Assembly: GCA_030432295.1 (NCBI GenBank)
Contig: JAUIHI010000003.1
Span: 310,001-374,000, forward strand
From: Anaerolineae bacterium
GTDB taxonomy: Bacteria; Chloroflexota; Anaerolineae; Caldilineales; Caldilineaceae
DNA: 64,000 nucleotides
Direction: 5' to 3'
Under the pieces are notes generated by a model. It did not search any database. It saw only the letters and a list, made by a program, of their open reading frames with translations, and was not told the origin of the DNA. This document shows positions 13,433 through 62,707 of the stretch, piece after piece (the first letter of the stretch is position 1; each line of letters opens with the position of its first letter). Made by a program: the position numbers and the translations under genes.

Positions 13433-13436
13433 GAAA

Positions 13437-13457
13437 TTGCGTATTGCGTATTCCGTT
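13437..13457. repeat. heptamer run
   Basis: Three 7-nt units, TTGCGTA twice and then TTCCGTT, start two bases after the stop codon of the binding-protein gene. They belong to the same class of short tandem words seen at 3468, 7385, 8583 and 17402. Confidence 0.6.
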
Positions 13458-13497
13458 TGTCTGGTGGGGCGCTGAATGGCGTTTCGCCAGACAAACG
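13454..13497 (+). terminator. hairpin after the binding-protein gene
   Basis: CGTTTGTCTGG (13454-13464) pairs perfectly with CCAGACAAACG (13487-13497), an 11-bp stem without a U-tract. It may attenuate rather than fully end transcription, giving more binding protein than permease as in many ABC operons. Confidence 0.5.
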
Positions 13498-13515
13498 ATG
13501 AATAATGCATGACCA

Positions 13516-13661
13516 GCGCTGGTTGAGTAGGCGGGTGCTTTTTCCCGCCGTATCGAAACCAAGCGGGTAGACCAGAAGTGTCACTAAAACCCGTTCGCTT
13601 GATTTCGATACGCCTCGAAGACGCAGAATCCGAAGGATTCTGACTGCTACTCAATCAGCGC
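13516..13661. repeat. about 145-bp inverted-repeat element
   Basis: The ends pair GCGCTGGTTGAGTAG (13516-13530) with CTACTCAATCAGCGC (13647-13661) with one mismatch. Inner arms around TATCGAAACCAAGCG and CGCTTGATTTCGATA also pair, and a small hairpin GAATCCGAAGGATTC lies inside. It is non-coding, between the receptor gene and livH, and looks like a MITE or REP-type element. Confidence 0.65.
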
Positions 13662-13738
13662 TCACTAGTCTAGCACGCGTCCAACGCCCCCTCCTCCCGA
13701 CGCCCGGCCAACCGACCACTCCCAACCCGAGGTGCCCC

Positions 13739-14677
13739 GTGTCGCCAACTGAAGTTCTGATCCAACAGTTGTTGAATGGCCTGACGATTGGCGCCTATCT
13801 GGCGCTGATCGCGTTGGGCTATACGATGGTTTACGGTATTATCGAGCTGATCAATTTCGCCCACGGCGATCTTTTTACCTTTGGCTTCCTCATCTCCCTC
13901 AGCCTCTTCCGGCTCTACGGCGCGACGGGAACGCTGGTGGGTTTCGAGTTGGTCTGGCTCTTCACGACGGTGCTGCTGCTGACAATGCTCCTGACGGGCA
14001 TTCTCAACGTCGTCATCGACCGCATCGCCTATAAACCCTTGCGTAAAGCGCCCCGGCTGGCCCCCCTGATCACCGCCGTGGGCATGTCCTTTGCCCTGGA
14101 AAATATCTTTGCCAACTGGTACGGCTCTAGCCAGATCAACTACCCGGACTTCTTCCCCCGGATAGATATTCTGCGCGAGTGGTTTCAGATGGACACGTAC
14201 ATTCTCTTCACCACCCAGGACCTGCTCCTCGTCGGCGTGACGATTCCGTTGATGATCGGCCTGCGTTTCTTCATTCAGCGCACAAAGCTGGGCAAGGCTA
14301 TGCGGGCCAGCGCTCAGAATGCCAACGCCGCCGCGATTATGGGCATCAATGTGGAGCGGGTGATTATGATTACCTTCTTCATCGGCGGCGCGCTGGCCGG
14401 CGCGGCCGGGATGATCTTCGGCAACTTCCTGCACACCGGGCGCTATCTGATGGGCTTTGACGCGGGTCTCTTCGCCTTCACCGCCGCGGTCTTTGGCGGC
14501 ATCGGCAACATCACAGGCGCGATGCTGGGCGGGCTGATTATCGGGCTGATCAAAGCCTTCAGCGATCAATACCTGGCCGCCCAGTGGACCCGGGCCGTCA
14601 TCTTCGCCATTCTGATTCTGGTGCTGGTTTTCCGGCCCCAGGGACTGCTGGGCCAAGGGGAGGCGGAGAAAGCCTGA
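13739..14677 (+). CDS. livH: branched-chain amino acid ABC transporter permease LivH
   Basis: This is an integral membrane permease of 312 residues with about eight spans. It opens with LIQQLLNGLTIGAYLALIAL and GYTMVYGIIELINFAHGD, the family signature. It also contains the cytoplasmic EAA-like loop GKAMRASAQNANAAAIMGIN that docks the ATPase. It starts at GTG 13739. The stop overlaps the ATG of livM (TGATG), which shows tight translational coupling. Confidence 0.95.
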   Translation: MSPTEVLIQQLLNGLTIGAYLALIALGYTMVYGIIELINFAHGDLFTFGFLISLSLFRLYGATGTLVGFELVWLFTTVLLLTMLLTGILNVVIDRIAYKPLRKAPRLAPLITAVGMSFALENIFANWYGSSQINYPDFFPRIDILREWFQMDTYILFTTQDLLLVGVTIPLMIGLRFFIQRTKLGKAMRASAQNANAAAIMGINVERVIMITFFIGGALAGAAGMIFGNFLHTGRYLMGFDAGLFAFTAAVFGGIGNITGAMLGGLIIGLIKAFSDQYLAAQWTRAVIFAILILVLVFRPQGLLGQGEAEKA

Positions 14678-16620
14678 TGGAACAGATACAGCGGAATCCC
14701 TCCCCCAAAACTCCTGGCCGCAGCACGGCCATTGTCCGCCCGGAACAGATCACCAATTGGGTGCTGGTCAGCGGGCTGGAAGCCTTTATCCTCATCGCAC
14801 TCACCCCTGCGCTGCTTAACCAGTGGGGCGGGCTGGGCTGGGCCGCCTTTGCCCTGGGCGCGGTGATGGCCGTCTTCGCCTATGGCTGGTATATGGGCAA
14901 AGCCGGGGCCTACCCGATGCTGGCAATTTTCTACGTCTTTTCCTTCGTCAGTCTGCTGGGGGCTGTGCTGGCTTTCCTTTCCACCCAGCCGATTGTCACC
15001 GCGCTGATCTTTCTGGCCCTGGCCTATCTGACCGCGGGGGCTTTTGCCCGCAAGGAGCGGGGCGCGTCGATCTTTCTGGCGATTGTGCTGGTCATCGGCT
15101 TTGTCGTCCTCTTTGCTTCGGCCAGCGAAGGGGCACGGGACCGGCTGAATCTGATGCTGCTTTTCTTCGCCCTCTATGTGCTGACCAGCGGCGCGGCCAC
15201 ATTTATTTTCGGCGTGCGTTTCAGCGATCTGCGCCGCCCGGATATGTTGGCCTTCTACGGTCTTGACAAAGAACCTGTCATCCTCACCGCCGTCGAGGCA
15301 CTGAATGTCCGGCTGACTGCCTTCCTCTCGGCCAGCTACGGCCTGATGACTGGGCTGCTGCGTCCGATTGGACGGGGTTCCGCGGCCACAGGACGGGCCT
15401 GGCGGGGCGCGCTGGCGGGTCTGCCCCGGCCCGCGCTGAAGGGGACGCAGATTGTCCTGCTCGTCCTCGGCCTGCTCGTCTTCCCCCTGGCCATCCGCCA
15501 GTTGGAGATGGCGACAAATCTCTCCCTCCTCATCACAATGAATGTGGGGCTGCTTTTCGTCGTCCTGGCCCTGGGGCTGAATATCGTCGTCGGTTTCGCT
15601 GGCCTGCTCGACCTGGGCTATGCGGCCTTCTTCGCCATCGGGGCCTATACAATGGGCATCTTCACCTGGCCCAATCTGGGGTTGGAGTGGAGCTTCTGGG
15701 TGGTCATCTGGCTGAGCGCGCTGGTGGCCGGTATCTTTGGGATGATTATCGGCGCGCCGACCCTGCGTCTGCGGGGGGATTATCTGGCGATTGTCACCCT
15801 GGCCTTCGGCGAGATTGTGCCCCGAGCCATCCGGGAGATGTGGGATATCAAACTCAAAATTCCCTTCACCGACATCTACCTTATCGGCTCGAAGCTGGAC
15901 GGTTTCAATTTGACCAACGGCCCTCAGGGGATGAATCCCGTGGGCAGGCCGATGTTCTTTGGCACGGAAATCGGTGTAGACCCCATCCAACTGGGCGCAT
16001 TGACTATCAGCCCGCCCATGCAGTGGTATTTTCTGATTCTGATGGTGGGTGGGATTGTCCTCTTTGCCGCGCTGCGTCTGGAACGTTCCCGGCTGGGCCG
16101 GGCGTGGATGGCGATCCGGGAGGACGAGACGGCCGCGGATGCCATGGGCGTGGACCCGGTGCGCACGAAGCTGCTGGCCTTTGCCCTGGGCGCATCCTTC
16201 TCCGGCTTCGCTGGCTCCATCTACGCGGCGATGATCCAGGCCATTTTCCCGGAACTCTTTAGCTTCCTTGTCTCCATCTTCCTACTGATTCTGGTGATTG
16301 TGAGCGGGATGGGCAACATTTGGGGCGTGCTGGTGGGCGGGCTGATGATCTCCCTCTTTGACCGGGTGGTTCTGGCCCAGATTGTGCCCCAATTTGTCCC
16401 CGGCGGCGATGTGCTGCAAAAGTGGCGCTGGGTGATGTACGCGGCGGGGCTGATTGCGGTGATGGTCCTGCGCCCGGAGGGACTCTTCCCCAGTGCGGCC
16501 CGGCGCGCCGAGCTGCACGTGGACGACGAGGATTGGGACGCAGATTTTGACGATCTGGACCCGGAGACGGCGACAGTTGTGGGCGCAGAAACCGCAGTCG
16601 ATAAGGGAGGCAACTGGTAA
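14677..16620 (+). CDS. livM: LivM-type permease with long N-terminal membrane extension
   Basis: The second permease subunit is 647 residues, well above the usual 320-425. The conserved LivM core starts near residue 280 (LALGLNIVVGFAGLLDLGYA). It includes TLRLRGDYLAIVTLAFGEIV, the docking loop GRAWMAIREDETAADAMGV and RPEGLFPSAAR. The first 250 residues add six to eight further hydrophobic segments (LEAFILIALTPALLNQW, AIFYVFSFVSLLGAVLAFL, FLAIVLVIGFVVLFASA) of unknown role. The ATG at 14677 overlaps the livH stop by one base. The C-terminus is very acidic (DDEDWDADFDDLDPE). The TAATG junction couples it to livG. Confidence 0.93.
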   Translation: MEQIQRNPSPKTPGRSTAIVRPEQITNWVLVSGLEAFILIALTPALLNQWGGLGWAAFALGAVMAVFAYGWYMGKAGAYPMLAIFYVFSFVSLLGAVLAFLSTQPIVTALIFLALAYLTAGAFARKERGASIFLAIVLVIGFVVLFASASEGARDRLNLMLLFFALYVLTSGAATFIFGVRFSDLRRPDMLAFYGLDKEPVILTAVEALNVRLTAFLSASYGLMTGLLRPIGRGSAATGRAWRGALAGLPRPALKGTQIVLLVLGLLVFPLAIRQLEMATNLSLLITMNVGLLFVVLALGLNIVVGFAGLLDLGYAAFFAIGAYTMGIFTWPNLGLEWSFWVVIWLSALVAGIFGMIIGAPTLRLRGDYLAIVTLAFGEIVPRAIREMWDIKLKIPFTDIYLIGSKLDGFNLTNGPQGMNPVGRPMFFGTEIGVDPIQLGALTISPPMQWYFLILMVGGIVLFAALRLERSRLGRAWMAIREDETAADAMGVDPVRTKLLAFALGASFSGFAGSIYAAMIQAIFPELFSFLVSIFLLILVIVSGMGNIWGVLVGGLMISLFDRVVLAQIVPQFVPGGDVLQKWRWVMYAAGLIAVMVLRPEGLFPSAARRAELHVDDEDWDADFDDLDPETATVVGAETAVDKGGNW

Positions 16621-50106: not shown

Positions 50107-50170
50107 CCTTCCCGGAAACGGCCACAGCAGTAGGGGAGTAAACATCTGGTGATGGCCGCTTCCGGGAAGG
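50107..50170. repeat. 64-bp REP/BIME hairpin
   Basis: CCTTCCCGGAAACGGCCA pairs with TGGCCGCTTCCGGGAAGG. It has the same length and ends as the units near the RAYT gene at 54074. It lies between the DUF385 gene and hsdM. Confidence 0.8.
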
Positions 50171-50346
50171 TCGAAAGTGACGACTTACGCAACGGCCAAT
50201 TTGTACCCGGTGATACGCTTGCGCCCCGCCTCCCTTTACGGTATCATAACCACCTGCAACAATCGGTTCCTTCTCTTTCCGAATCAGCCCATTCCTGGCT
50301 TTTTGCCACACAAACCCACTGCAATCCCAGCGAGACAGCCAACCCT

Positions 50347-51930
50347 ATGCCCGTAACGATCAACCAGGACGAAATCAACAGCATTGTCTGGAAAGCCTGC
50401 GACACCTTCCGGGGCACAATTGACCCGTCCGAATACAAAAACTATATTCTGGTGATGCTCTTTCTCAAATACATCAGCGATGTGTGGCAGGAGCACTACG
50501 ACGACCTGCGCGCACGCTATGCCGATGACGAGCGGCGTATCCGTCGTCAGTTGCAATACGAGCGCTTTGTCCTGCCAGAGGGAGCCGACTACTACACCCT
50601 CTACGACGAGCGCAACGAGAGCAATCTGGGCGAGCGCATCAACATTGCCCTGGAAAAGATAGAGGACGCCAACAAAGCCAAGTTGGAAGGGGTCTTCCGC
50701 AACATCGACTTCAACAGCGAAGCCGCGCTGGGACGCACGAAACAGCGCAACGAACGGCTCAAGCACCTGTTGGAAGACTTTCACGACCCCCGCCTGAACC
50801 TGCGCCCTTCCCGCATCGGCAGCCAGGATGTGATTGGCAACGCCTATGAATATCTGATTGGCAAGTTTGCCAGCGACGCGGGCAAGAAGGCCGGTGAGTT
50901 CTACACCCCACCGGAAGTCTCCCTGCTGCTGGCCGAACTGCTCGACCCCCAACCCGGTGAACGCATCTGTGACCCGGCCTGTGGCTCCGGTTCTCTGCTG
51001 ATTAAGTGCGCCCAGCAGATCACGGCCCTTCCGGGAAGCGGCCAAAATCAGAATGGGTCAACGGAAATATCCGGGCCGCTTCCCGGAAGGCTGCGCGCCG
51101 ACAACTACGCTGCCTATGGGCAGGAGGCCAACGGCGCAACCTGGGCGCTGTGTATGATGAACCTCTTCCTGCACAATATCAATGTGACCATCGACAACAT
51201 CAAATGGACCGACACCCTCAAAGACCCCCGTCTGTTGGAGGGTGACAATCTCATGCGCTATCACGTCGTCGTCGCCAACCCGCCCTTCTCTCTGGACAAG
51301 TGGGGCGCAGAGGATGCGGCCAAGGACCGCTTTGGCCGCTTCCATCGGGGCGTGCCCCCCAAGAGCAAGGCCGACTACGCCTTTCTCTCCCATATGGTGG
51401 AGACGACCTTTCTGGACCCGACCCAAAATGGACGGGTAGGGGTGGTGGTGCCCCACGGGGTGCTCTTTCGGGGCGGGGCCGAGGGCAAGATACGCCGCCA
51501 GTTTATCGAGGAGAATCTGCTCGATGCGGTCATCGGTCTGCCCGAAAATCTCTTCTACGGGACGGGTATCCCTGCGGCCATCCTCCTATTCAAGCGCAAC
51601 AAACGGGATGACAGCGTGCTCTTTATCGACGCCAGTCGGGAGTACGAGCCGGGAACGAACCAGAACAGACTACGAGAGAAGGACAGACTCACAATAGGCG
51701 ACGCCTACCGGCGTCGTGGTTTTGTGGACAAATACGCCTATTGCGCCACACGGGACGAAATCGCCGAGAACGATTACAACCTGAACATTCCCCGCTATGT
51801 GGATACCTTCGAGGCCGAGGAGCCGGTGGATATGGCCGGGGTGAATCGGGAGATTGGGGGTCTGCGTGCCCAGTTGGGCGAGTTGGAGGGGCAGATGCAG
51901 GGGTATCTGAGGGAGTTGGGTTTAGCCTAA
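50347..51930 (+). CDS. hsdM: type I restriction-modification methylase subunit HsdM
   Basis: The protein is 527 residues. An N-terminal helical domain (NSIVWKACDTFRGTIDPSEY, KNYILVMLFLKYISDVW) is followed by the N6-adenine methylase core: motif I DPACGSGSLL at residue 209 and catalytic NPPFSLDKW at residue 311. ATG 50347 (MPVTINQDEINSI) is chosen; the frame is open back to 50149 but that part overlaps a BIME. A 64-bp BIME lies in frame at residues 227-248 (TALPGSGQNQ to GPLPGRL), just after CAQQI and before the conserved YGQEANG. The stop overlaps the hsdS start in TAATG. Confidence 0.96.
   Translation: MPVTINQDEINSIVWKACDTFRGTIDPSEYKNYILVMLFLKYISDVWQEHYDDLRARYADDERRIRRQLQYERFVLPEGADYYTLYDERNESNLGERINIALEKIEDANKAKLEGVFRNIDFNSEAALGRTKQRNERLKHLLEDFHDPRLNLRPSRIGSQDVIGNAYEYLIGKFASDAGKKAGEFYTPPEVSLLLAELLDPQPGERICDPACGSGSLLIKCAQQITALPGSGQNQNGSTEISGPLPGRLRADNYAAYGQEANGATWALCMMNLFLHNINVTIDNIKWTDTLKDPRLLEGDNLMRYHVVVANPPFSLDKWGAEDAAKDRFGRFHRGVPPKSKADYAFLSHMVETTFLDPTQNGRVGVVVPHGVLFRGGAEGKIRRQFIEENLLDAVIGLPENLFYGTGIPAAILLFKRNKRDDSVLFIDASREYEPGTNQNRLREKDRLTIGDAYRRRGFVDKYAYCATRDEIAENDYNLNIPRYVDTFEAEEPVDMAGVNREIGGLRAQLGELEGQMQGYLRELGLA
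51027..51090. repeat. 64-bp REP/BIME inserted in the hsdM coding sequence
   Basis: CCTTCCGGGAAGCGGCC pairs with GGGCCGCTTCCCGGAAGG. The length is 64 bp, exactly like the intergenic units. The reading frame passes through it without a stop and returns to the family sequence at YGQEANG. Confidence 0.85.
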
Positions 51931-53192
51931 TGACTCCATTCAAACAGAACATCCCATCGGGATGGAAGCTCGCAACCATTGACGAAGTTGTCACACTCAA
52001 ATCAGGCAGTACACCACTACGAGCCAAACAGGAAGCCTATTTCGACGCTGGGACAATTCCGTGGGTCAAAACAATGGACCTAACCAATGGTCCAATCTTG
52101 GAAACAGATGAGAAAATCACAGAATTGGCGCTTCGAGAATCAAGTTGTCCGATGCTAAAGCCCGGAACAGTTCTCGTGGCGATGTATGGCGGATTCAATC
52201 AGATTGGGCGCACAGGGTTGATGACATTTCCTGGCACTATCAATCAGGCCATTTCAGCGCTCATGCCAAACAAAGACGTACTTGACTCAGGCTACCTGTT
52301 GAATTGGTTGAATTGCAATGTGATGAGTTGGAGGCGGTTGGCGGCGAGCAGTCGTAAAGACCCAAACATTACTCGAAGTGACGTAGCAGGCTTCCCTGTA
52401 CTCCTCCCACCCCTGCCCGAACAGCGCAAGATAGCCCAAATCCTGGGGACGTGGGACGAGGCCATCGCCACCACGGAGAAGCTCATCGCCGCCCTGGAAC
52501 GGCGCAAGCAGGGGTTGATGCAGCGCTTGTTGACGGGTCAGGTGCGCTTTGGGGAGTTTGTTGAATCTGAAGATTATCAAGAGACGCGCTATGGTTTTCT
52601 TCCCGGTGACTGGCGACTTGCTGAGATTCAGTCGATTGGCAAAGTCAATAAAGAAAACGCTGACAAAGACCCGAACAGGGAATGGTTCTACATTGACCTT
52701 TCATCCGTCGAAAACGGTACCATTGATTTTCCCCTCAGTCGGATTCGATTTGAAGAATTACCCTCTCGAGCTCAACGAGTTTTACATCGCGGCGATGTGT
52801 TGATGGCAACGGTTCGGCCCAATTTGCTGGGTTACGGGCTTTGTGATTTTGAACCTGTAGATACGCTTTGTTCGACTGGCTTTGCACTGATCTCTCCGAT
52901 AGACTTGGATGATGCGTCCTTTATTTACTATAGCTTGTACGGTGCGACAGTTCAGGGCCAGATTCACGGAATGGTGACTGGTTCAAGTTATCCCGCTATC
53001 AATTCGACAGAAGTTATGCAATTGAGAATCTTCTACCCGAATAGTAAAGTAGAAAGAATGAAAATCGCCAACACTCTTCAAAATGTTGATGGAGAAATGA
53101 AGGCACTGCGTCGCTATAAGAATCGGTTGGAGCTACAGAAAAAAGGGTTGATGCAACGCCTGCTCACGGGGCAGGTGAGGGTGGCGGGGTAG
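51930..53192 (+). CDS. hsdS: type I restriction-modification specificity subunit HsdS
   Basis: The protein is 420 residues with two target-recognition domains. TRD1 is about residues 5-160 (IPSGWKLATIDEVVTLKSGS, RSDVAGFPVLLPPLPEQRKIA). The central spacer helix is AALERRKQGLMQRLLTGQVRF, TRD2 is about 215-370, and the C-terminal helix repeats the spacer (LELQKKGLMQRLLTGQVRVAG). Both TRDs are AT-richer than the spacers, as expected for modules exchanged between strains. Translation starts at the ATG overlapping the hsdM stop. The last 60 bases of the gene are the source of the tandem copies that follow. Confidence 0.95.
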   Translation: MTPFKQNIPSGWKLATIDEVVTLKSGSTPLRAKQEAYFDAGTIPWVKTMDLTNGPILETDEKITELALRESSCPMLKPGTVLVAMYGGFNQIGRTGLMTFPGTINQAISALMPNKDVLDSGYLLNWLNCNVMSWRRLAASSRKDPNITRSDVAGFPVLLPPLPEQRKIAQILGTWDEAIATTEKLIAALERRKQGLMQRLLTGQVRFGEFVESEDYQETRYGFLPGDWRLAEIQSIGKVNKENADKDPNREWFYIDLSSVENGTIDFPLSRIRFEELPSRAQRVLHRGDVLMATVRPNLLGYGLCDFEPVDTLCSTGFALISPIDLDDASFIYYSLYGATVQGQIHGMVTGSSYPAINSTEVMQLRIFYPNSKVERMKIANTLQNVDGEMKALRRYKNRLELQKKGLMQRLLTGQVRVAG

Positions 53193-54050
53193 GTAGCCTT
53201 CCGGGAAGGGGCCGGGTGATTGAGGGGATAAGAAAGTTGGTGTGGCCTCTTCCCGGAAGGGGGATACGAGTCATCTCTGCCCGTCCGAGAAAAAAGGGAT
53301 TGATGCAATGGCTGCTGACGGGCAGGTGTGGGTGGCGGGGTAGGCGACCTTCCGGGAAGAGGCCAGGCGATTGAGGGAATAAGAAAGTTGGTGTGGCCTC
53401 TTCCCGGAAGGATGGAGACGAGACATCTCCGCCAGTCCGGGGAAAATGGTTTGGGGCAATGGCTGCTGACGGGCAGGTGCGGGTGGCGGAGTAGATGGCC
53501 TTCCGGGAAGAGGCCAGGCGATTGAGGGAATAAGAAAGTTGGTGTGGCCTCTTCCCGGAAGGTGGAAGACGAGACATCTCTGCCCGTCCGAGGAAAAAGG
53601 GATTGATGCAACGCCTGCTCACGGGGCAGGTGCGGGTGGCGGGGAAGGTGGAAGACGAGACATCTGCGCCAGTCCGGGGAAAATGGTTTGGGGCAATGGC
53701 TGCTGACGGGCAGGTGTGGGTGGCGGGGTAGGCGACCTTCCGGGAAGAGGCCAGGCGATTGAGGGGATAGGAAAGCTGGTGTGGCCGCATCCCGGAAGGA
53801 AAGACGAGACATCTCCGCCAGTTCGGAGAATTGGGGTTGACGAAACGGCGGATGTCGGGCAGGTGCGGTTGGTGGGGTAGATGGCCTTCAGGGAAGGGGC
53901 CAGGCGATTGAGGGAATCCGTGTGTAATTGTGGCCCCTTCCCGGAAGGTGGAAGACGAGACATCTGCGCCAGTCCGGGGAAAATGGTTTGGGGCAATGGC
54001 TGCTGACGGGCAGGTGTGGGTGGCGGGGTAGGTGGCCTCCCGGGAAGGGG
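53193..54050. repeat. tandem REP/BIME array with captured hsdS 3' ends
   Basis: Units of about 151 bp each combine a 64-bp BIME with a decayed copy of the end of hsdS (GGGATTGATGCAACGCCTGC-like, GGGCAGGTGCGGGTGGCG, GGGTAG). Complete BIMEs lie at 53197-53260, 53348-53411, 53499-53562, 53736-53799 and 53885-53948, and a half unit at 54036-54050. One unit near 53600-53700 lacks its BIME. The frames in the captured pieces are broken, so they are not expressed as protein. Confidence 0.88.
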
Positions 54051-54073
54051 TTTCGGTAGATTGGAGGAATTCA

Positions 54074-54661
54074 ATGCCACGTCGTAAACTTCGTTTTGAG
54101 CAGGGCCGCTATTATCACGTCTACAACCGGGGCGCGGGACGCCAGGGCATTTTCCGCAAGGAACGGGATTATTTCAATCTCCTCGAACTGATGAAGGAGA
54201 TTTCTGCCATCTGCAACATTTCCATCATCGCCTACTGTCTGCTGCCCAATCACTACCACTGGCTGGTCCGGCAGAATGGGCCAATTGGTGTGAACAAGTT
54301 GGTGGCCCGGATATTTGGCAGCTATAGTCAATCGTTCAACAATCGATACAATCGCAGTGGCACGCTCTTTGAGGGAACTTTTGAAGCAATTCTGGTTGAG
54401 ACCGACGAATATCTGCGCCATCTCTGCCGCTATATTCACGCCAATCCCGTTCGCCACCAACTGTCTCTTTCACCCGATCTGTGGCCCTATTCCAACTATC
54501 TGGAATTTGTCGGCAGGCGGTCCGGCAAACTGGTTGATCTGGCATTTGTAGCCGCCCACTTTCCGCAGCCCGGACAGTACGAGGCGTATGTACTCTCTTA
54601 TTTGACCGATCAGGTGACTTTGCCGCCGGGGTTGCGAACGTATTTAGAAGGATTGATGTGA
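54074..54661 (+). CDS. REP-associated tyrosine transposase (RAYT, Y1/IS200-like)
   Basis: This is a HUH-family single-strand transposase of 195 residues. HUH motif: NHYHWLV (His60 and His62). It also shows RGAGRQGIFRKERDYF, the NRYNRSGTLFEG segment and the conserved CRYIHANPVRH stretch. ATG 54074 has GGAGG seven bases upstream. It is flanked on both sides by 64-bp BIMEs, the arrangement known for RAYT genes, which are thought to spread REP sequences. No IS-type terminal repeats are needed for this class. Confidence 0.93.
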   Translation: MPRRKLRFEQGRYYHVYNRGAGRQGIFRKERDYFNLLELMKEISAICNISIIAYCLLPNHYHWLVRQNGPIGVNKLVARIFGSYSQSFNNRYNRSGTLFEGTFEAILVETDEYLRHLCRYIHANPVRHQLSLSPDLWPYSNYLEFVGRRSGKLVDLAFVAAHFPQPGQYEAYVLSYLTDQVTLPPGLRTYLEGLM

Positions 54662-54666
54662 GGCGA

Positions 54667-54814
54667 CCTTCCGGGAAGAGGCCAGGCAATTGAGGGAATA
54701 AGAAAGTTGGTGCGGCCTCGTCCCGGAAGGGGAGGACGAGACATCGCTGCCAGTCCGGGGAAAAAGGGATTGATGCAACGCCTGCTCACGGGGCAGGTGC
54801 GGGTGGCGGGGTAG
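54667..54814. repeat. BIME plus hsdS-end copy downstream of RAYT
   Basis: The BIME occupies 54667-54730 (64 bp), followed by another copy of the hsdS end (about 54768-54814, ending GGCGGGGTAG). The RAYT gene is therefore embedded in the array rather than beside it. Confidence 0.85.
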
Positions 54815-54850
54815 ATGGAGATAGACTTTTGAAAACCAAGTGGAGGCGGT

Positions 54851-56347
54851 ATGGAAAGTTCTGAAAAAATTTCAATTGCGGAATTACGGAGCCAGATGGA
54901 GCCTTTTTTCGGACGGACAATTTTCGATGAAGACATGTATCTTATGATATGTCTTATTTTTCTAAAAGGTTTTTACGAGCTAGAACTATCTCAACGCCAG
55001 GGAAAACTCCCGCCTGAAGCCGAGTGGCCAGTATTGCTCATAGATCCCTCATATGACAGTCTTATGCAAGGATTCCGGGCTTTTGAATTACTGCCTGAAA
55101 ACAAGGGGTTTGCAAATCCGTTTTCCCAATTCGTTTTTGACAGGGACAAATGGAATGAGAATCCCAAAATCAAAGAGGGTTGGCCTGCCATAAAAAATAC
55201 ATTAGCCAGCTTTGAACTCTGGCTTGCCTTGATGCAAGTACCGCGCACCCCAGCAGGAACTACCCCAACCTCAATTAGTAGTTTGCTGGCAAAGATTCTC
55301 TCGCCTAGAGCGAAATCGACGATTTACGACCCCACCTCAGGCACTGCCCAATTATTATCGATTGTCGCAAATTCGAAAATGACGGGTGATACAGATTCTG
55401 ATGTCAAAATATTTGGGCAGGAAGCCAATCAGATGATTGCATGCATCGGTAAAATGCATGTTGCTTTATACGGTTTGCCTCCCCAAAATATAGCCGTAGG
55501 TGACACGCTGCTATCGCCGCAGCACCTTGAAGATGGGCAAATCAGGAAGTTTGATTATGTAGTAGCCAATGCCCCCTTCAATATGTCGAGGAGTAAGGCA
55601 TATGTAGACAAGTTGCGCAGCGACCCATTCGGACGATTTGCATTTGGACTACCTTCAAACTCTCTTGATTTTGCCTTCATTCAACACGTAGTAGCCAGCC
55701 TAAATGAGAATGGGCGGGGTGCTATTGTCACAACTCCAGGAGTTCTATTCCGTGGAGGCGTTGAAGGTAGAATCCGACAGACCCTAGTCCAACAAGATAT
55801 TATCGAGGCAGTTATCTCTCTGCCAGCAGGCATGTTCACGAATACAAAAACACCTGTTGTGCTGCTCTTATTTAACAAGCAGAAACCAGAATTCTTGCGA
55901 GAACATATCCGTTTTATTTATGCAGATGAACTGGGAGAGCGTACAGAACAGTGGTATCCGGTAAGACTGAGCGAATCTGAGCAAAGTAGAATTGTCGATG
56001 CAATCAAAAGTCCATCCAACATCAAAAACTTTGCCGAAACCGTCCCTATAGAAAGGATAGAAAAACAAGAATTTCGGCTAACACCAGCCATCTATATGGA
56101 CCTGCTTGATTTCGATAAATTCCTTGGAGGTGAGTATGGTTTAGTCAATTTGGCAGATAAGGCTGAAATAATCCAAGGCACCCGGATAGTAAGAGGTGGT
56201 AAGACCCCATTTATTCAAGGACGAAATCTCGCTGGCAGGCTGTCATTGTCGGAACTAGAGTTGGCTACTTTGCCTGAGAGCGTGAAAGGAGTTTATACCA
56301 AACAAGGAGATATCCTTGTCCAAAGAATTGGTGATCAGCCTAAGTAG
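54851..56347 (+). CDS. second N6-methylase-like protein, 5' part of a split gene
   Basis: The open part is 498 residues. It is an HsdM-like core with altered motifs: motif I DPTSGTAQLL at residue 160 in place of DPxCGxG, and NAPFN at residue 240 in place of NPPF/Y. Methylation may therefore be weak or lost. Typical parts are FGQEANQMIACIGKMHVALY, SLDFAFIQHVVASLNENGRG and GVLFRGGVEGRIRQTLVQQD. From about residue 440 it reads like the start of an HsdS recognition domain (QGTRIVRGGKTPFIQGRNL, GDILVQRIGDQPK), where it stops at TAG. The same domain resumes at about 56445 in another frame. The DNA is AT-rich compared with its neighbours, which suggests transfer. Confidence 0.85.
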   Translation: MESSEKISIAELRSQMEPFFGRTIFDEDMYLMICLIFLKGFYELELSQRQGKLPPEAEWPVLLIDPSYDSLMQGFRAFELLPENKGFANPFSQFVFDRDKWNENPKIKEGWPAIKNTLASFELWLALMQVPRTPAGTTPTSISSLLAKILSPRAKSTIYDPTSGTAQLLSIVANSKMTGDTDSDVKIFGQEANQMIACIGKMHVALYGLPPQNIAVGDTLLSPQHLEDGQIRKFDYVVANAPFNMSRSKAYVDKLRSDPFGRFAFGLPSNSLDFAFIQHVVASLNENGRGAIVTTPGVLFRGGVEGRIRQTLVQQDIIEAVISLPAGMFTNTKTPVVLLLFNKQKPEFLREHIRFIYADELGERTEQWYPVRLSESEQSRIVDAIKSPSNIKNFAETVPIERIEKQEFRLTPAIYMDLLDFDKFLGGEYGLVNLADKAEIIQGTRIVRGGKTPFIQGRNLAGRLSLSELELATLPESVKGVYTKQGDILVQRIGDQPK

Positions 56348-56447
56348 TTCCAAGAAAATTTTTAGACATAAATTAGCTTTATTTTCGTCAATCCTAACCT
56401 GATTATCGTGAAATTCTATTTCCAAAAACTTCTTTGATTTTACTTAG
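56340..56447. mobile_element. about 108-bp AT-rich insertion with imperfect inverted ends
   Basis: The left end CTAAGTAGTTCCAAGAAAAT and the right end, read inverted, ACTAAGTAAAATCAAAGAAG are similar over about 25 bases. The insert separates two parts of one recognition domain and shifts the frame. It looks like a miniature non-coding element. Confidence 0.5.
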
Positions 56448-57744
56448 TGCTTCTCTTGTAGAAGAAGATGCATCTGGCACTCTGATTAACGATACCGTCT
56501 ACATAATCCGGCCAAATTCAGATATCGATAATACAACCAGACAATTTTGGGTCAAGTTCTGGAATTCAGAACGTGGGCAGGGATACCTAACCACATTTTT
56601 AAGGGGGCAGGTGAGAAAAACCTCCACAATTAAATTGAAAGATCTGCGCAATATCCAATTACCATATCCAAGGCCATCTGCTCTAGATGCCTTTAGCCAG
56701 TTACTCCAGGTCGAAAAACGACTTACCAGCCGCATTGATGAACTACAACAGCTATTAGGTGACCTCTTTAGCGAGGAGATGGACGAGGGGGCGAAGCTAC
56801 AGGACTTGACCAATAGAGCACATGGTCTTGATATGAGCATTATACAAAGTGACGATTTAGGCTTCCGTATTCGCAACTTCTATCCTTTTGTTCTCGCCTA
56901 TGCCTATCGTCTATTAGATGCAATTCATAGTCCGTCTGAGCGCTATGTGGAACAGCTACGCGTGGCCGAAAACGTATTGGTCTTTCTTGGCAATGTTGGC
57001 TTATGCATGGCCGCCCATCTAGATAAGTTGGCTACAGATGACAATCGAAATCTTACCAAGAGTGACTTAGGAGGATTTTGGAGTGGCGGCATTTCTCCCG
57101 GTGACTGGCAACAAATGGCCAGACAAGCCGGAAGTCTTGTGAGAAACACCCAAGCGTCACCAGCAATTGATGTATTTGGGGACCTGTGGTTTCGAGGTCG
57201 GGGCACAAAGGAGTCTTCTTTCGCCGCCCTGACCAAGGACTTAGTCACTCTCAAGAATGACCACAAGCACGACCGCGGGCCAAAGACTGAACCAGATTAC
57301 CAACACGGAAACGACAATCTTGGGCATAAGCTAGAGGAATGCTTCTCTGGTGTCGAGTTCTTTGTCTCATCTCCCATGCGCCTCATACTGGACACGAATT
57401 TGGATTGGGCGACACAAGCCACACATTTAGAGACCTTGGCTTTTGTAGGAGACCATCCAGGATTGCAAAAAGAGGCGTTGGATTATCCAAAACCGCTCGT
57501 CAAAGGTCACCTCTATCTCGATGTTGGTGCAAGTGAATGGGTTCCCCTATACCCGCTAATCTCTGTACACTACTGCCCCAGTTGTAAGTCAAGAGAGACA
57601 TACTTCATTGACCGTTATGATGGCCCCAGTGGCCGATTTGTGCTAAAGAGCTTTGAGCGTGGACACACCCACGAGAATGACGAAGTCACAAAGCAGGTTA
57701 CGATAGACTTTGAGATTTGGATGAACAGGAACGTGAAGGATTGA
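56434..57744 (+). CDS. S-domain remainder with HEPN-like C-terminal region, 3' part of the split gene
   Basis: This part is 436 residues. Residues 7 to about 115 finish an HsdS-type recognition half-domain (EEDASGTLINDTVYIIRP, RGQVRKTSTIKLKDLRNIQL, then coiled QVEKRLTSRIDELQQLLGDL). A helical domain follows with LKNDHKHDRGP at about 274-284, similar to the R/K-x4-6-H motif of HEPN-type domains. After that comes PLYPLISVHYCPSCKSRETY (Cys381, Cys384), and then KSFERGHTHE. Such tails are known next to kinase or abortive-infection modules (my recollection). The TTG at 56434 is only the first possible start; the real protein probably began at 54851. Confidence 0.72.
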   Translation: MILLSASLVEEDASGTLINDTVYIIRPNSDIDNTTRQFWVKFWNSERGQGYLTTFLRGQVRKTSTIKLKDLRNIQLPYPRPSALDAFSQLLQVEKRLTSRIDELQQLLGDLFSEEMDEGAKLQDLTNRAHGLDMSIIQSDDLGFRIRNFYPFVLAYAYRLLDAIHSPSERYVEQLRVAENVLVFLGNVGLCMAAHLDKLATDDNRNLTKSDLGGFWSGGISPGDWQQMARQAGSLVRNTQASPAIDVFGDLWFRGRGTKESSFAALTKDLVTLKNDHKHDRGPKTEPDYQHGNDNLGHKLEECFSGVEFFVSSPMRLILDTNLDWATQATHLETLAFVGDHPGLQKEALDYPKPLVKGHLYLDVGASEWVPLYPLISVHYCPSCKSRETYFIDRYDGPSGRFVLKSFERGHTHENDEVTKQVTIDFEIWMNRNVKD

Positions 57745-57819
57745 ATGGGTAGGATGAGGATTATTCAGCGCTATATCACTGAGCAGATGCGGGTTAGGAT
57801 TGAGGAGGTTGTTCAATGA
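57745..57819 (+). CDS. 24-codon open frame between split methylase and broken gene
   Basis: MGRMRIIQRYITEQMRVRIE and four further residues, with the stop TGA overlapping the next ATG (ATGA). It may be a leader peptide or a gene fragment. Nothing supports a function. Confidence 0.25.
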   Translation: MGRMRIIQRYITEQMRVRIEEVVQ

Positions 57820-58120
57820 TTCCTGAAATTGAGGCCATTGTACAAAAGTATCCGAATCTCCATCTCTGAGTGAATAAAGGCGAACGCCATCGGATTATTA
57901 GGGCAGACATCCCCAAAGGTAGCTTCTGGGTTGAAAGACTCAGTGACAGCTATCGGCTCAAACCAACTGGTGATGTCGCCACTGTGCTTTCTGGTTATGT
58001 GAAGACAGTTGTGGGGAACCGTTCCGTCAAGACCAGGGCGACGACGTTTGGCATATCCCCTTTGATGGGTCGATGGAGAAAATCGTGCAGCGTCTGGCCG
58101 AGGCAGATCCGACGAGATAG
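57816..58120 (+). pseudogene. small gene broken by a stop and a frameshift
   Basis: The frame opens MIPEIEAIVQKYPNLHL, meets TGA at 57867 and goes on in the same frame as NKGERHRIIRADIPKGSFWV and on through GYVKTVVGNRSVK. Near 58025 the sensible reading moves to another frame: QDQGDDVWHIPFDGSMEKIV, then QRLAEADPTR and TAG at 58118. The intact protein would have had about 100 residues. The family is not recognised. Confidence 0.5.
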
Positions 58121-58159
58121 GCGAGAGGCCAAAAGGTCAATCAAAAAGGAGAATAATCG

Positions 58160-58729
58160 ATGACAACAAAAGAAGAGATATTGGCGTGGCCGTTAGAAGA
58201 GGTGAAATTCCTGGTTGATTATTCGTATTACAACGACCGGGAGCCTGAAAGACGTGTCGAAAGACTCCTCCTGCCTCCCCCATTGCCAGAACTTGGAATT
58301 GAGAAGGACACCCATCTCGCCAATTTTACAAGGGCCATACAAAATTCAAGCGGTTTTTCTCAACAAGTATTGAAAGATCTTTACCGCAACGCAGCGGAGG
58401 GTCATTTCACGGAAATTGACCCAAGCGGGTTAGGCAAAAAAGTCAAAATTCCGTGGGAACAGAAGTTGGCGTGGTTGTGGAAGGAATACCCGAATCAGGA
58501 CACATTGCGCGGATTCGTACATAACCTCTCTACCAAGACAACTCTCTGTGGACTTCTTATCTACAACCTTCTCAAGCATAGCGACCCAAAGAACCCAGGA
58601 TACCGAATGGTGGGTGCGGTTCTCAATACCTATCGTGTGAATGATGCCTGTCCAAAGAAGAAGGATGAGGAAAACAAAAGCGAGTATCTGATTGAACTCA
58701 AGTTGCGCCAAATTCTGAAATCCAAATAG
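58160..58729 (+). CDS. hypothetical protein upstream of hsdR
   Basis: The protein is 189 residues, soluble and unrecognised. It opens MTTKEEILAWPLEEVKFLVD and contains FSQQVLKDLYRNAAEGHFTE and PKNPGYRMVGAVLNTYRVND. AAAGGAG precedes the ATG. It lies 28 bp ahead of hsdR on the same strand, inside the type I locus, so an accessory or immunity-type role is possible but unsupported. Confidence 0.65.
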   Translation: MTTKEEILAWPLEEVKFLVDYSYYNDREPERRVERLLLPPPLPELGIEKDTHLANFTRAIQNSSGFSQQVLKDLYRNAAEGHFTEIDPSGLGKKVKIPWEQKLAWLWKEYPNQDTLRGFVHNLSTKTTLCGLLIYNLLKHSDPKNPGYRMVGAVLNTYRVNDACPKKKDEENKSEYLIELKLRQILKSK

Positions 58730-58757: not shown

Positions 58758-61700
58758 ATGACCCAATCCCAAGCCTATCTGGAACTCATCTCCTCCCAAC
58801 TGCCCGCCCTCCAACTGCTTATCCAGATGGGCTGGACGTATCTGCCGCCCACCGAAGCCATGCACCTGCGCGGGGGGCGCACAAAGAACGTCATCCTCAC
58901 GGGCATTCTGGACCCCTGGCTGCGGGAACACAACCAGATCGCCTACAAAGGCGAGAGCCACCCCTTCAGCGACAACAATATCAGCCAGGCCATTGCCAAG
59001 CTGGTGGACGAACCCTTCCAGAGCCTCATCCCCACCAACAGCATCCTCAGCGAACTGCTCACCCTGGGCACCAGCCTGACCCAGACCATTCGGGGTGACC
59101 GCAAGAGCTACAGCCTGGACTACATCGACTGGCAACACCCCGAGCGCAATGTCTACCACATCAGCGACGAATTCAGCGTGGAGATGGCGGGCAGCCACAG
59201 CACACGCCGCCCAGATATTGTCCTCTTTGTCAACGGCATCCCTCTGGTGGTCATCGAATGCAAGCGGGCCGACAAAGAGCATCACGGCGAAAAGGCGATT
59301 GCCCTTGGCATCGAGCAACTGCTCACCTACCAGAGCGAAGGCGAGATACCCCACCTCTTCGCCACCTCCCAACTGCTCCTGGCTATCAGCCCCAACGACG
59401 CCCTCTACGCTACCACAGCCACGCCCAAGAAGTTCTGGTCCCTCTGGCGAGAGACAGGCACGGACAGCGCCCATTTGGAAGCTGCCGTTCACGAACGGGC
59501 TGTACACGACCTCATCAATCGGCCCCTGAGTGGGGGCGACGAGAACCGTCTCTACGACTGGCGGGAGTACGCGGGTTCGATTCGCAGCCACTTTGCCAGG
59601 CTGGGCGAACGCTTGCCCACGGAACAGGACCGCACCCTACACGCGCTTCTGCGGCCAGAACGTCTCTTGGAACTGGCCTATCAGTACATCGTCTTCGATG
59701 ATGGCAAAAAGAAGATTGCCCGCTACCAACAATACTTCGCCATCCAGGAGACCCTCAAACGGGTCGTCCATCGCAACGCCCAGGGCACACGCACAGGCGG
59801 CGTCATCTGGCACACCACAGGCAGTGGCAAATCCCTGACAATGGTGATGCTCGCCAAAGCCCTGGCCCTCCATCCCAACGTACCCAATCCCCGTGTGGTG
59901 CTGGTCACCGACCGGGTAGATTTGGACGACCAGATTTTTGGCACATTCCGCGCCTGTGGCAAATCTGTGGCTCAGGCCAAAAGTGGCAAGCATCTGGTGC
60001 GTCTGGTCACGGGTCAACTGGGCAAGGGGGAACGGGCCACCGATGTCATCACCACCCTCATCAACAAATTTGAGGAAGCGGCCCGCCAGAAGGTCAAAGA
60101 CGAGGGCATCAATACTTTTGTGCTGGTGGACGAGAGCCACCGCAGTCAGTACGGTTCCATGCACGCCAAAATGCAACGGGTCTTCCCCAACGCCTGCTAC
60201 ATCGGCTTCACAGGCACGCCCCTGACCAAAAAGGAGAAGTCCACTGCGGAGAAGTTTGGCAGCTTCATCCACAAATACCCCATGCGCCAGGCAGTCAGCG
60301 ACAAAGCGGTGGTACCATTGCTCTATGAAGGGCGCATTGTGGAACAGGATGTGGACAAGGCCCAGTTGGAGCGCTGGTTCGAGCGCACCACCCGCCATCT
60401 GAGCGACGACCAGAAGGCTGACCTCAAGCGCAAGATGAGCCGTAGCGAGGCCATCAACGCCACGGCCCAGCGCATCCAGGAGATTGCCTACAATGTGGCT
60501 CTCCACTACGAACAGAACCAGCGGGGCACCGGTTTCAAAGCCCAGCTTGCCACCCCTTCCAAAGCCATCGCTGTCGCCTATCTCAACTATCTGCGGGAAT
60601 ATGGCATCGACGCCGCCTTGATGATTTCGCCCCCAGACAGCCGGGTAGGACAGGAGGAAGTGGATGGGACCCTGCCCGAAGTTCAGCTTTTCTGGAAACG
60701 GATGATGGACCGCTATGGCAGCGAGGAAGTCTACAACCGGGAGATACTCTCCTCCTTTTCCCAGGCCGATGGCATCGAGATTCTGGTGGTGGTGGACAAG
60801 CTGCTCACCGGCTTCGACGAACCCCGCAACCGGGTGCTCTATGTGGACAAACCCCTGCGCGAGCACACCCTTCTCCAGGCCATCGCACGGGTCAACCGGC
60901 TCTTTGAGGGCAAGGATTTCGGCTATATCATCGACTACCGGGGCGTGTTGGGCGAACTGAACCAGGCCATCAACCTTTATGACGCCCTGGCCGACTTTGA
61001 CGCCGAGGATGTGTTGGGCACGCTGGCCGATGTCTCCGAGCAGATTGAACGCCTGCCCCAGTTGCATTCGGACCTGTGGGCCATCTTTGCCCCTGTCGTC
61101 AACCAGCGGGACCGGGAGCAGATGGAACGCCATTTGGAGCCGGAAGACAGGCGGGCACGCTTCTACGAGGCCCTGACCGACTATGCCCGTGTCCTGGCTA
61201 TCGCCCTGGCTTCGGTCCAGTTCTACAGCGACACGCCGGAGCCGCGCATCCAGCGCTACAAGGACGACCTGAAATTCTTCCACAGCCTGCGCCAGTCGGT
61301 CCAGTTGCGCTACGCCGAAACAGTGAACTACCAGCGGGACTACGAAGAGAAGGTCCGCAAGCTGATGGATGAACACATCAAGGCCACGGGCACGACGGTC
61401 ATCACCGAAATGGTCAACATCTTCGACGCTGAGAAGTTCGACGCCGAAGTCGAGAAGCTGGCATCCCCCACCGCCAAGGCTGACACGATTCTGCACCGAA
61501 TGCAGCGCACCATCAGCGAACACATGGACGAAGACCCGGCCTACTATCGCAAATTCTCCGAACTCATCGCCGAAACCATTCGTGCCTATCGAGAAGGGCG
61601 CATCTCCGAACTGGAATATTTGACCCAGGCCGAAGAACGCTTGGAGAGCCTGCGCACACGCCGGGACAATGGCCAACCCGGCGACCTGACCCGTTACCGT

Positions 61701-61994
61701 CACGCCCCGGCCTACTTCGGCGCATTGAAGGAGCAACTGAACGGCTACGGGGCTGCGGTGGATGAGAACCAACTGGCCCAGGCTGCTATCCGCCAGGAAG
61801 AGATTATCGAAGGCTACAAAGTGATGGACTGGGCTGGCAACGCAGACGTCAAGAACCAGATTCGCCGCGCCCTGGACGATCACTTCTACGAGATGGAGCG
61901 GGCACTGGACCTGACCCTGAGTTCCGAGGAGTTGGACGCACTGATTGAGCAGGTCTTGGAAATCGCCATTGCCCGCGATAGACTATCTCTATGA
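58758..61994 (+). CDS. hsdR: type I restriction endonuclease subunit HsdR
   Basis: This is the restriction and translocation subunit, 1078 residues. The N-terminal PD-(D/E)XK nuclease has Asp153 (RRPDIVLF) and Glu167-x-Lys169 (VVIECKRAD). The SF2 translocase has motif I TTGSGKS (Lys358), motif II DESH (Asp458), motif III TGTPLT and motif VI region QAIARVNRLFEGK. The helical C-terminal part (about 850-1078) would dock on HsdM. It is separated from hsdM-hsdS by 5.6 kb of repeats, RAYT and a foreign methylase. Its last four bases overlap the next gene (ATGA). Confidence 0.97.
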   Translation: MTQSQAYLELISSQLPALQLLIQMGWTYLPPTEAMHLRGGRTKNVILTGILDPWLREHNQIAYKGESHPFSDNNISQAIAKLVDEPFQSLIPTNSILSELLTLGTSLTQTIRGDRKSYSLDYIDWQHPERNVYHISDEFSVEMAGSHSTRRPDIVLFVNGIPLVVIECKRADKEHHGEKAIALGIEQLLTYQSEGEIPHLFATSQLLLAISPNDALYATTATPKKFWSLWRETGTDSAHLEAAVHERAVHDLINRPLSGGDENRLYDWREYAGSIRSHFARLGERLPTEQDRTLHALLRPERLLELAYQYIVFDDGKKKIARYQQYFAIQETLKRVVHRNAQGTRTGGVIWHTTGSGKSLTMVMLAKALALHPNVPNPRVVLVTDRVDLDDQIFGTFRACGKSVAQAKSGKHLVRLVTGQLGKGERATDVITTLINKFEEAARQKVKDEGINTFVLVDESHRSQYGSMHAKMQRVFPNACYIGFTGTPLTKKEKSTAEKFGSFIHKYPMRQAVSDKAVVPLLYEGRIVEQDVDKAQLERWFERTTRHLSDDQKADLKRKMSRSEAINATAQRIQEIAYNVALHYEQNQRGTGFKAQLATPSKAIAVAYLNYLREYGIDAALMISPPDSRVGQEEVDGTLPEVQLFWKRMMDRYGSEEVYNREILSSFSQADGIEILVVVDKLLTGFDEPRNRVLYVDKPLREHTLLQAIARVNRLFEGKDFGYIIDYRGVLGELNQAINLYDALADFDAEDVLGTLADVSEQIERLPQLHSDLWAIFAPVVNQRDREQMERHLEPEDRRARFYEALTDYARVLAIALASVQFYSDTPEPRIQRYKDDLKFFHSLRQSVQLRYAETVNYQRDYEEKVRKLMDEHIKATGTTVITEMVNIFDAEKFDAEVEKLASPTAKADTILHRMQRTISEHMDEDPAYYRKFSELIAETIRAYREGRISELEYLTQAEERLESLRTRRDNGQPGDLTRYRHAPAYFGALKEQLNGYGAAVDENQLAQAAIRQEEIIEGYKVMDWAGNADVKNQIRRALDDHFYEMERALDLTLSSEELDALIEQVLEIAIARDRLSL

Positions 61995-62707
61995 GCAAAG
62001 GTACCTATGGTTTTTTGTACGGGGAAACCCGCATCGAATACAGCCTACTCTACGCCAAACGCAAGACCCTGGCCATCAGTGTCAAGCCTGACCGCAGCGT
62101 AGTGGTCAAAGCCCCCACAGGCACGTCCCTGGCCGATGTGGAAGCTGTGGTACGCAAGCGGGCCAACTGGATTCTGCGCCACCAGCGCCAGTTTGCCAGC
62201 TATCCCCCACCAACGCCACCCCGCCAATATGTCAGCGGCGAGACCCACCGCTATCTGGGCAGACAATACCGGCTCAAAGTCATCGAGGCCGAAAAGGAAT
62301 GGGTCAAACTCAGTCGGGGCTATCTTCACATTTGGACCGCCAACCCGCAGGATACAGAACGGGTCAAAGAGCTTCTGGACGACTGGTACAAACGACAGGC
62401 AAGCCGGGTCTTCCAGGAACGGCTCGACGCCTGCTATCCACGGGTCAAGCGTCTGGGCATTGCTTACCCGCCACTGGTCATTCGGTCGATGAAGAGTCGC
62501 TGGGGTAGCTGCTCGCCGAAGGGCAAAGTCACTCTCAACCTGAAATTGATACAGACACCCGCCGAGTGCATCGATTATGTGATACTCCACGAACTCTGCC
62601 ATCTGCGAGAGCATAATCACGGGCCGGGGTATTACGCGCTGTTGGGGCAGGTCTGTCCCGATTGGAAGGCGCGCAAGGCCCAGTTGAACAGTTGTGAGGT
62701 TGTGTAG
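61991..62707 (+). CDS. YgjP/SprT-like zinc metallopeptidase
   Basis: The protein is 238 residues. The DUF45/YgjP pattern is clear: KRKTLAISVKPDRSVVVKAP, YLGRQYRLKV, RSMKSRWGSCSPKGKVTLN and the zinc motif HELCH at residues 200-204, followed by HNHGPGYYALL. Start ATG 61991 overlaps the hsdR stop, so the two are translated together. Genes of this family often follow hsdR (general observation); a role in subunit turnover or control of restriction is inferred. Confidence 0.93.
   Translation: MSKGTYGFLYGETRIEYSLLYAKRKTLAISVKPDRSVVVKAPTGTSLADVEAVVRKRANWILRHQRQFASYPPPTPPRQYVSGETHRYLGRQYRLKVIEAEKEWVKLSRGYLHIWTANPQDTERVKELLDDWYKRQASRVFQERLDACYPRVKRLGIAYPPLVIRSMKSRWGSCSPKGKVTLNLKLIQTPAECIDYVILHELCHLREHNHGPGYYALLGQVCPDWKARKAQLNSCEVV

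Follow-up and report, generated by a model that had tools for sequence, protein, structure and literature searches.

The 64,000-nt stretch analysed here (the window; Anaerolineae bacterium, assembly GCA_030432295.1, contig JAUIHI010000003.1, positions 310,001 to 374,000) carries at 54851–57744 a gene that joins, in one polypeptide, an N6-methylase core, a single target recognition domain (TRD) and spacer equivalent to half of an HsdS subunit (half-S unit), and a helical module resembling HEPN RNases. The gene is split in the window by a miniature inverted-repeat transposable element (MITE), and the same polypeptide occurs uninterrupted in several lineages, the family being spread over Chloroflexota, Actinobacteria and one contig of a viral collection. 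Restriction-linked HEPN effectors have precedents; for the methylase–half-S carrier none is known. In the reading that we favour, at about an even chance, the product of the uninterrupted gene is a backup (suicide) RNase tied to restriction and controlled by DNA recognition. The parts of the gene, which now lies in two open reading frames (ORF1 and ORF2), are as follows.

54851–56347, + strand: ORF1, first half of the fusion gene, 498 residues (N6_Mtase, PF02384, residues 138–417, E 6e-61)
55262–56101, + strand: N6-methylase core in ORF1; the N-terminus ahead of the core is divergent
55328–55351, + strand: motif I, DPTSGTAQ, in ORF1
55568–55579, + strand: motif IV, NAPF, in ORF1
about 56123 onwards, + strand: start of the half-S unit, from alignment with the relative L019
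56340–56447, no strand: MITE-like insert splitting the gene, with 31-nt imperfect inverted arms
56434–57744, + strand: ORF2, second half of the fusion gene, 436 residues; the frame opens inside the insert
ORF2 residues 7–113: rest of the half-S unit (end of the TRD and spacer helix; PADLOC Specificity_I, E 4e-5)
56881–57369, + strand: HEPN-like helical module (alignment A4, structure model, hhalign with controls)
56968–56970, + strand: conserved Glu of the module in ORF2 (A4)
57253–57270, + strand: module motif KNDHKH, within LKNDHKHDRGP, in ORF2
57370–57741, + strand: C-terminal beta-rich tail with GDHP, CPSC (57574–57585) and GH (conserved columns in A4; strands in the model)

A first-pass annotation made from the sequence alone had read ORF1 and ORF2 as one polypeptide split by a small insert and had suggested a search for intact relatives of the joined sequence. 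This search yielded 12 intact single-chain proteins of 769–988 residues (L003, L017, L019, L021–L027, L053 and L105), and ORF1 and ORF2 were therefore once one gene; the alternative of two separate genes was dropped for the same reason. All 12 share the order N6-methylase (or its remnant), half-S unit and helical domain, with the CxxC tail present in 10. The closest relative is L019, from an Anaerolineae metagenome-assembled genome, where one 988-residue frame is 42% identical to ORF2 over its length and carries HsdM_N, N6_Mtase, a half S, CPSC and the identical string LKNDHKHDRGP; HsdM_N was not detectable in ORF1 with Pfam. The half HsdS and the CxxC tail named in the annotation were likewise recovered, as the PADLOC match in ORF2 and the CPSC of the tail. 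In the window, L019 and L053 a single Specificity unit is present (residues 481–660 in L019, E 4e-10; 278–427 in L053, E 2e-11), not the two TRDs and two spacers of a complete HsdS.

The insert is a MITE insertion. It is about 110 bp long, A+T-rich and non-coding, and its 31-nt inverted arms (56340–56370 and 56417–56447) are 71% complementary. Its DNA recurs at nine further positions of the genome, with 99–100% identity over 102–107 nt in four cases, and has no match in six related genomes. Of eight copies inspected by eye, seven are bordered by the same 2 bases on either side (TA in four cases), as expected of a short target duplication. The insertion seems recent from the near-identity of the copies, and a programmed frameshift was discarded as an explanation of the split because a multi-copy mobile element sits at the junction. 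The device has probably been lost or impaired in this genome through the split. It is indeed probable that the window copy is a functionless pseudogene: a repeat array and a transposase lie nearby, and decay is seen in other genomes, L020 being frameshifted and L029 a truncated fragment. This would be true of the window copy at most, given that both halves are free of any other stop or frameshift outside the insert, that the hsdM, hsdS and hsdR frames are open and that purifying selection acts on intact relatives in other genomes; it is compatible with the preferred reading of a DNA-gated suicide RNase, which concerns the intact gene.

Relatives were sought in several collections. ORF2 is present once in its own genome and has no match in 60 related ones. 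A profile search of 396 genomes of the same class matched 11 including the window's own, the sole other strong match (E 1e-70) being in genome G469, the source of L053. Three Streptomycetaceae records were obtained by tblastn of plasmids and 13 loci by a scan of genome contigs. The viral collection gave one positive locus, L105, among 23 candidate stretches; none of seven candidate stretches from the scan with ORF2 held, and none of the 77 loci from a search with profile A6 contained the C-terminal module, leaving L105 the sole positive of 78 viral loci scanned. A search of a phage collection gave no match. A tree built from the module places the window beside L019 (support 100/99), with G469 joining next (95/98). 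The 21 rows of this tree and its alignment were chosen for having the motif (L014, L018, L050, L056, L057 and L058, with no match to the motif pattern there, were left out), and the conservation of N and H in them is thus partly by construction. Alignment A4 comprises 13 rows, the fragment L029 being excluded.

The first-pass annotation had held that its reading would suffer if relatives of the second part occurred without a methylase. Such proteins do occur, as half-S unit plus module in L004, L005, L028, L030 and L031, and the fusion itself is intact in the 12 proteins above; the methylase-less relatives therefore point to a mobile effector module and do not refute the fusion. Remoter homologues of the module are fused to CHAT (L018, G143), cNMP-binding (L015/L016, G124, G156) and hydrolase (L054, G528) domains, which suggests a wider signalling or effector module that has no name. 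In L055 (3–2399, G724) the module is fused to weak HARE-HTH (E 1e-4) and RAMA (E 0.005) matches, possibly another combination of a modified-DNA reader with HEPN. In RefSeq, a Streptomyces protein of the family is named 'N-6 DNA methylase' and a methylase-less form 'restriction endonuclease'.

Probable assignment of the helical module to HEPN

The module probably belongs to the HEPN superfamily, an assignment supported by its motif, an invariant upstream Glu, its helix layout and its profile similarity. N-x3-H is kept in all 12 intact relatives and in the window (13/13). The pattern used in the scan of genome contigs contained the motif, so that the loci from that scan are biased toward it; L003–L005, L017, L053 and L105 were found without the pattern, and all keep N and H. 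Glu65, upstream of the motif, is invariant in the 13 rows of A4 and provides the acidic residue expected of HEPN, while the Ex3[KR] pattern is absent from A4. In the 21-row alignment the Glu, the N and the H are found again in remote homologues.

Structure prediction of the last 300 or so residues, another check proposed in the first-pass annotation, gave a confident model for the C-terminal 322 residues (m995639b95d0f; predicted local distance difference test score, pLDDT, 89.8; predicted template modelling score 0.87). It contains helices 38–48 and 53–81, an insert at 95–138, helices 148–164 (with the motif at the end) and 172–192, and beta strands thereafter. This order, namely a hairpin bearing the Glu, an insert, a helix ending in the motif and a last helix, agrees with the HEPN layout in section 6 of PMC3710099, where passages describe two hairpins with an insert between helices 2 and 3. 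By hhalign, with the motif in register, the module scored 27.1 against HEPN_RiboL-PSP (PF18735) and 21.5 against HEPN_Swt1 (PF18731); the two HEPN families scored 23.4 against each other, and the unrelated helical HsdM_N gave 10.1–18.3. The maxima in 40 column shuffles were 12.2 and 21.5, with at least one shuffle on the Swt1 template equalling 21.5, so that this score is weak in absolute terms, and the maximum in a separate run of 30 shuffles was 14.0. The likeness to the two families lies in Rx4H, whose R is followed by N in most rows; the differences are that membership in either family is not significant and that those families have other fused domains.

Several results weigh against the assignment. 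No HEPN family was detected for ORF2 with Pfam, NCBIfam or PADLOC, or for the 13 rows of A4 with Pfam. A sequence search of the PDB returned nothing with ORF2 and nothing below E 0.19 with the A4 profile. Foldseek with the C-terminal model gave best E-values of 0.19 (PDB) and 0.026 (BFVD) and no significant HEPN match, the non-significant tenth BFVD hit being a phage MAE-28990/MAE-18760-like HEPN protein (E 0.35), and the best VIA-align Z, 6.2, was below the noise guide. Motif, Glu and helix layout favour the HEPN-like module of the first-pass annotation, and a significant match to a library family or a known fold was not obtained. The C-terminal region might instead be a regulatory domain, helical but unrelated to HEPN, with an RN-x3-H likeness due to chance or convergence, as the missing matches and the low hhalign probabilities (3–14%) would allow. 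We consider this unlikely, since both tested HEPN families align in register at scores near that between HEPN families and above the HsdM_N control, and since the Glu, N and H are also seen in remote homologues.

The residue before N also bears on activity. It is Arg in nine of the 12 intact relatives (RN-x3-H), Lys in L019, L053 and the window, and Leu in L105. The replacement counts against RNase activity here, and the window's clade may be catalytically inactive because of it; the module would then be an RNA- or protein-binding adaptor linking a (pseudo)methylase reader to a restriction-modification (R-M) or bacteriophage exclusion (BREX) complex. Such an adaptor seems rather unlikely, though less so than a fold unrelated to HEPN. 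N and H are invariant and H-x-R-G-P-K is common to the window, L019, L053 and L105, which indicates continued constraint on the site in these proteins; nine other intact relatives retain Rx4H; and a passage in section 6 of PMC3710099 allows that in some HEPN families other basic residues may replace Arg.

Selection and the state of the methylase

Among seven close pairs of relatives (L003, L022–L027), the ratio of nonsynonymous to synonymous substitution (dN/dS, Nei-Gojobori) was 0.22–0.53 for the methylase, 0.10–0.25 for the half S, 0.08–0.12 for the HEPN-like module and 0.07–0.18 for the tail; the pairs are non-independent, dS is small, and an eighth pair (L025–L023) was saturated for module and tail. 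The C-terminal HEPN-like part and the tail are the most constrained regions in the tested pairs.

The altered methylase motifs of the first-pass annotation were upheld for motif IV and only in small part for motif I. DPTSGTAQ is mildly unusual beside DPAAGSGS and DPAMGSGG of solved HsdM-type chains and DPACG[GS]AG of L025–L027, and it was dropped as strong evidence of inactivity, being near natural variants; judged from the motifs, NAPF in place of NPPF is the plainer deviation. The window protein thus has the N6_Mtase fold without the NPP(F/Y/W) of HsdM, and L019 has the fold, HsdM_N and NPPF. Motif IV is altered in five of the 13 proteins: HPPF in L023 and L024, NPPV in L105, NAPF in the window, and L053 lacks both motifs. 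DPxxG is kept in 11 of the 12 intact proteins and in the window.

NPPF is retained in eight of the 12 intact proteins, which weighs against the suicide-RNase reading in leaving room for a true methylase; a methylase dead in the whole family was therefore rejected. The gene could then encode an active single-chain site-specific adenine methylase (M plus half S) whose C-terminal region serves oligomerisation only, acting in modification and not in suicide. The prevalence of DPxxG fits this, as does the strong structural match of the methylase part of a full-length L019 model to PacII M1/M2 and other HsdM (a poor model overall, pLDDT 57.2 from eight rows, and used for this match alone). We nevertheless regard a pure methylase as improbable: the methylase is the least constrained region in all seven pairs, the C-terminal module is kept where the motifs are altered or lost, and the half-S–HEPN proteins without a methylase exist. 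The methylase is drifting in certain lineages and is probably still active in others.

Genomic settings of the fusion gene and its relatives

The first-pass annotation had supposed a device without a nuclease subunit. This was incorrect, as a full-length HsdR is encoded 1 kb downstream of the split gene; an intact HsdM/HsdS pair is encoded upstream, and the split gene is thus enclosed by a type I R-M locus. The neighbouring features are as follows.

50149–51930, + strand: HsdM, canonical type I methylase with DPACGSGS and NPPF (PF02384, E 1e-102; PF12161, E 4e-30; TIGR00497, 289.8 bits, above cut-off)
51741–53192, + strand: HsdS frame with two Methylase_S units (PF01420 in two stretches, E 2e-20; PADLOC Specificity_I)
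54032–54661: Y1/IS200-like (REP-type) transposase between the HsdS and fusion frames
57816–58163: small ORF between the fusion gene and hsdR, apparently interrupted by one in-frame stop
58160–58729: ORF of 189 residues without a Pfam or PADLOC family match
58758–61994, + strand: HsdR, full-length type I restriction/translocase subunit (PF04313, PF18766; TIGR00348, 467.8 bits, above cut-off; PDLC03041, E 3e-212)
61991–62707: YgjP-like metallopeptidase, adjoining HsdR in the type I R-M locus

Between hsdS and the fusion gene, a repeat array at 53138–54818 comprises six copies of a 225-nt repeat, mostly at about 151-bp spacing, and eight copies of a 28-nt repeat that takes in the 3′ end of hsdS; the transposase adjoins it, and the array looks like a REPtron grown from the hsdS end. 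No BREX genes were identified with Pfam or PADLOC among the flanking genes scanned in the window.

Linkage to hsdMSR, as for PrrC, is complete at the window and at L022, where a Nocardia fusion gene lies convergent beside HsdR, HsdS and two HsdM genes, and partial at L019, where the contig ends. There the fusion is followed after four bases by a true HsdM, 65% identical to that of the window, and then by what appears by eye to be the start of an HsdS-like frame. An HsdM and a REase_I-like gene lie 2–5 kb from the broken copy L020, and an HsdS and a REase_I-like gene upstream of the methylase-less form L030. The two adjacent HsdM genes of the L022 locus (13321–16511) may be compared with the PacII M1M2S complex.

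In G469 (contig C363; L053, L102 and L104) the row consists of a large DrmMI/type IIG-like methylase, a DUF4007/SspB-like gene, the 769-residue fusion with a degenerate methylase, an SspC/BrxC-like ATPase, PglZ (E 3e-11) and BrxL (E 2e-121). This homologue alone lies in one operon with PglZ, a BrxC-type ATPase, BrxL and a modification enzyme, as in BREX; passages of PMC12839542 list DUF4007, SspC-type BrxC, PglZ and BrxL among the parts of Type-4 BREX. At L105 the fusion lies in a phage-integrase island with Fic, NERD and weak AbiTii-like genes. At L017 (654–4172, G413) a PLD-SNF2 helicase resembling DrmD is directly 5′ of the methylase–half-S–HEPN gene, and the two may possibly form a two-gene defence system. 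Speaking against a restriction-linked role, the six Streptomyces/Crossiella loci L021 and L023–L027 showed no other HsdM, HsdS or HsdR within 5–8 kb per side (blastp, 1e-5), and R-M linkage of the fusion is therefore not universal.

Proposed function

The device is best read as working like PrrC and differing in build. Passages of PMC3710099 link at least 16 HEPN clades to R-M, describe PrrC as silenced by its R-M partner and propose backup suicide by analogy with it. PrrC (the EcoprrI-linked anticodon nuclease) and RloC share with the fusion an HEPN-type RNase, here predicted from the motif, and PrrC, for which the same source proposes a backup role in suicide, is likewise tied to a type I R-M locus. 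They differ in carrying an ABC ATPase, where the fusion has methylase and half S on the same chain; Pfam scans revealed no ATPase domain in the window ORFs or in L019, so the fusion does not qualify as a PrrC/RloC protein. With type I HsdM/HsdS (M2S) and PacII M1M2S the family shares the N6-methylase core, HsdM_N in several relatives and one Methylase_S-type unit, and it differs in having M and S on one chain, half an S only, the additional HEPN-like module and CxxC tail, and the altered motif IV in some members. HEPN-DUF499 ATPases, related to BREX (Type-1 BR/Hma), similarly place HEPN on one of the core components of a defence operon with DNA modification, according to a passage of PMC12839542; there HEPN is on the ATPase, and in the BREX-like operon of G469 on a methylase-derived half-S protein.

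HEPN RNases are usually dimeric, and truncated half-S subunits pair. Two fusion chains would accordingly pair through their half-S spacer helices, so that DNA would be contacted by two methylase domains and two TRDs and two HEPN domains would come together; a passage of PMC3874165 describes symmetric recognition, that is by two identical TRDs, for truncated EcoDXXI S subunits. The HsdM-like part may bind the TRD and read site methylation, or may partner a neighbouring HsdM, the methylase–TRD head being either a modification reader or a surface hit by DNA-mimic inhibitors. The trigger would be unmodified phage DNA, or inhibition of the neighbouring R-M or BREX system, for example by a DNA-mimic anti-restriction protein. 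The HEPN RNase might then be released to cut cellular RNA, and infection would abort. Dimerisation and phage protection are predictions, as is the RNase activity, and the steps from recognition to release are modelled on PrrC silencing by its R-M partner and on PARIS, which senses Ocr according to section 35 of PMC12839542, the nearest working models. The abortive-type device of the first-pass annotation thus stands as a reasonable reading, without the absence of a nuclease subunit on which it had been based.

More tentatively, at somewhat below an even chance, the family may represent an undescribed class of defence proteins, in which a type I-like methylase and half-S reader has been turned into the trigger of an HEPN RNase. 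In several lineages the methylase site would then be degenerating into a sensor or decoy, and the class would have been taken up by type I R-M loci, by a BREX-like operon and by a mobile island. According to a passage of a 2013 survey, fusions to methylases do not occur among HEPN domains linked to R-M, and no later report of a methylase–HEPN fusion was found in the PMC literature (subscription papers and preprints being outside its scope). If true, such a methylase-gated RNase would overturn that stated rule, and its signal would be unmodified sites or DNA mimics directed against restriction. In the fusion, type I R-M and BREX have a candidate for a backup effector, and the family, with its HEPN part under strong selection, would allow a direct test of how cell suicide can be placed under the control of a modification enzyme.

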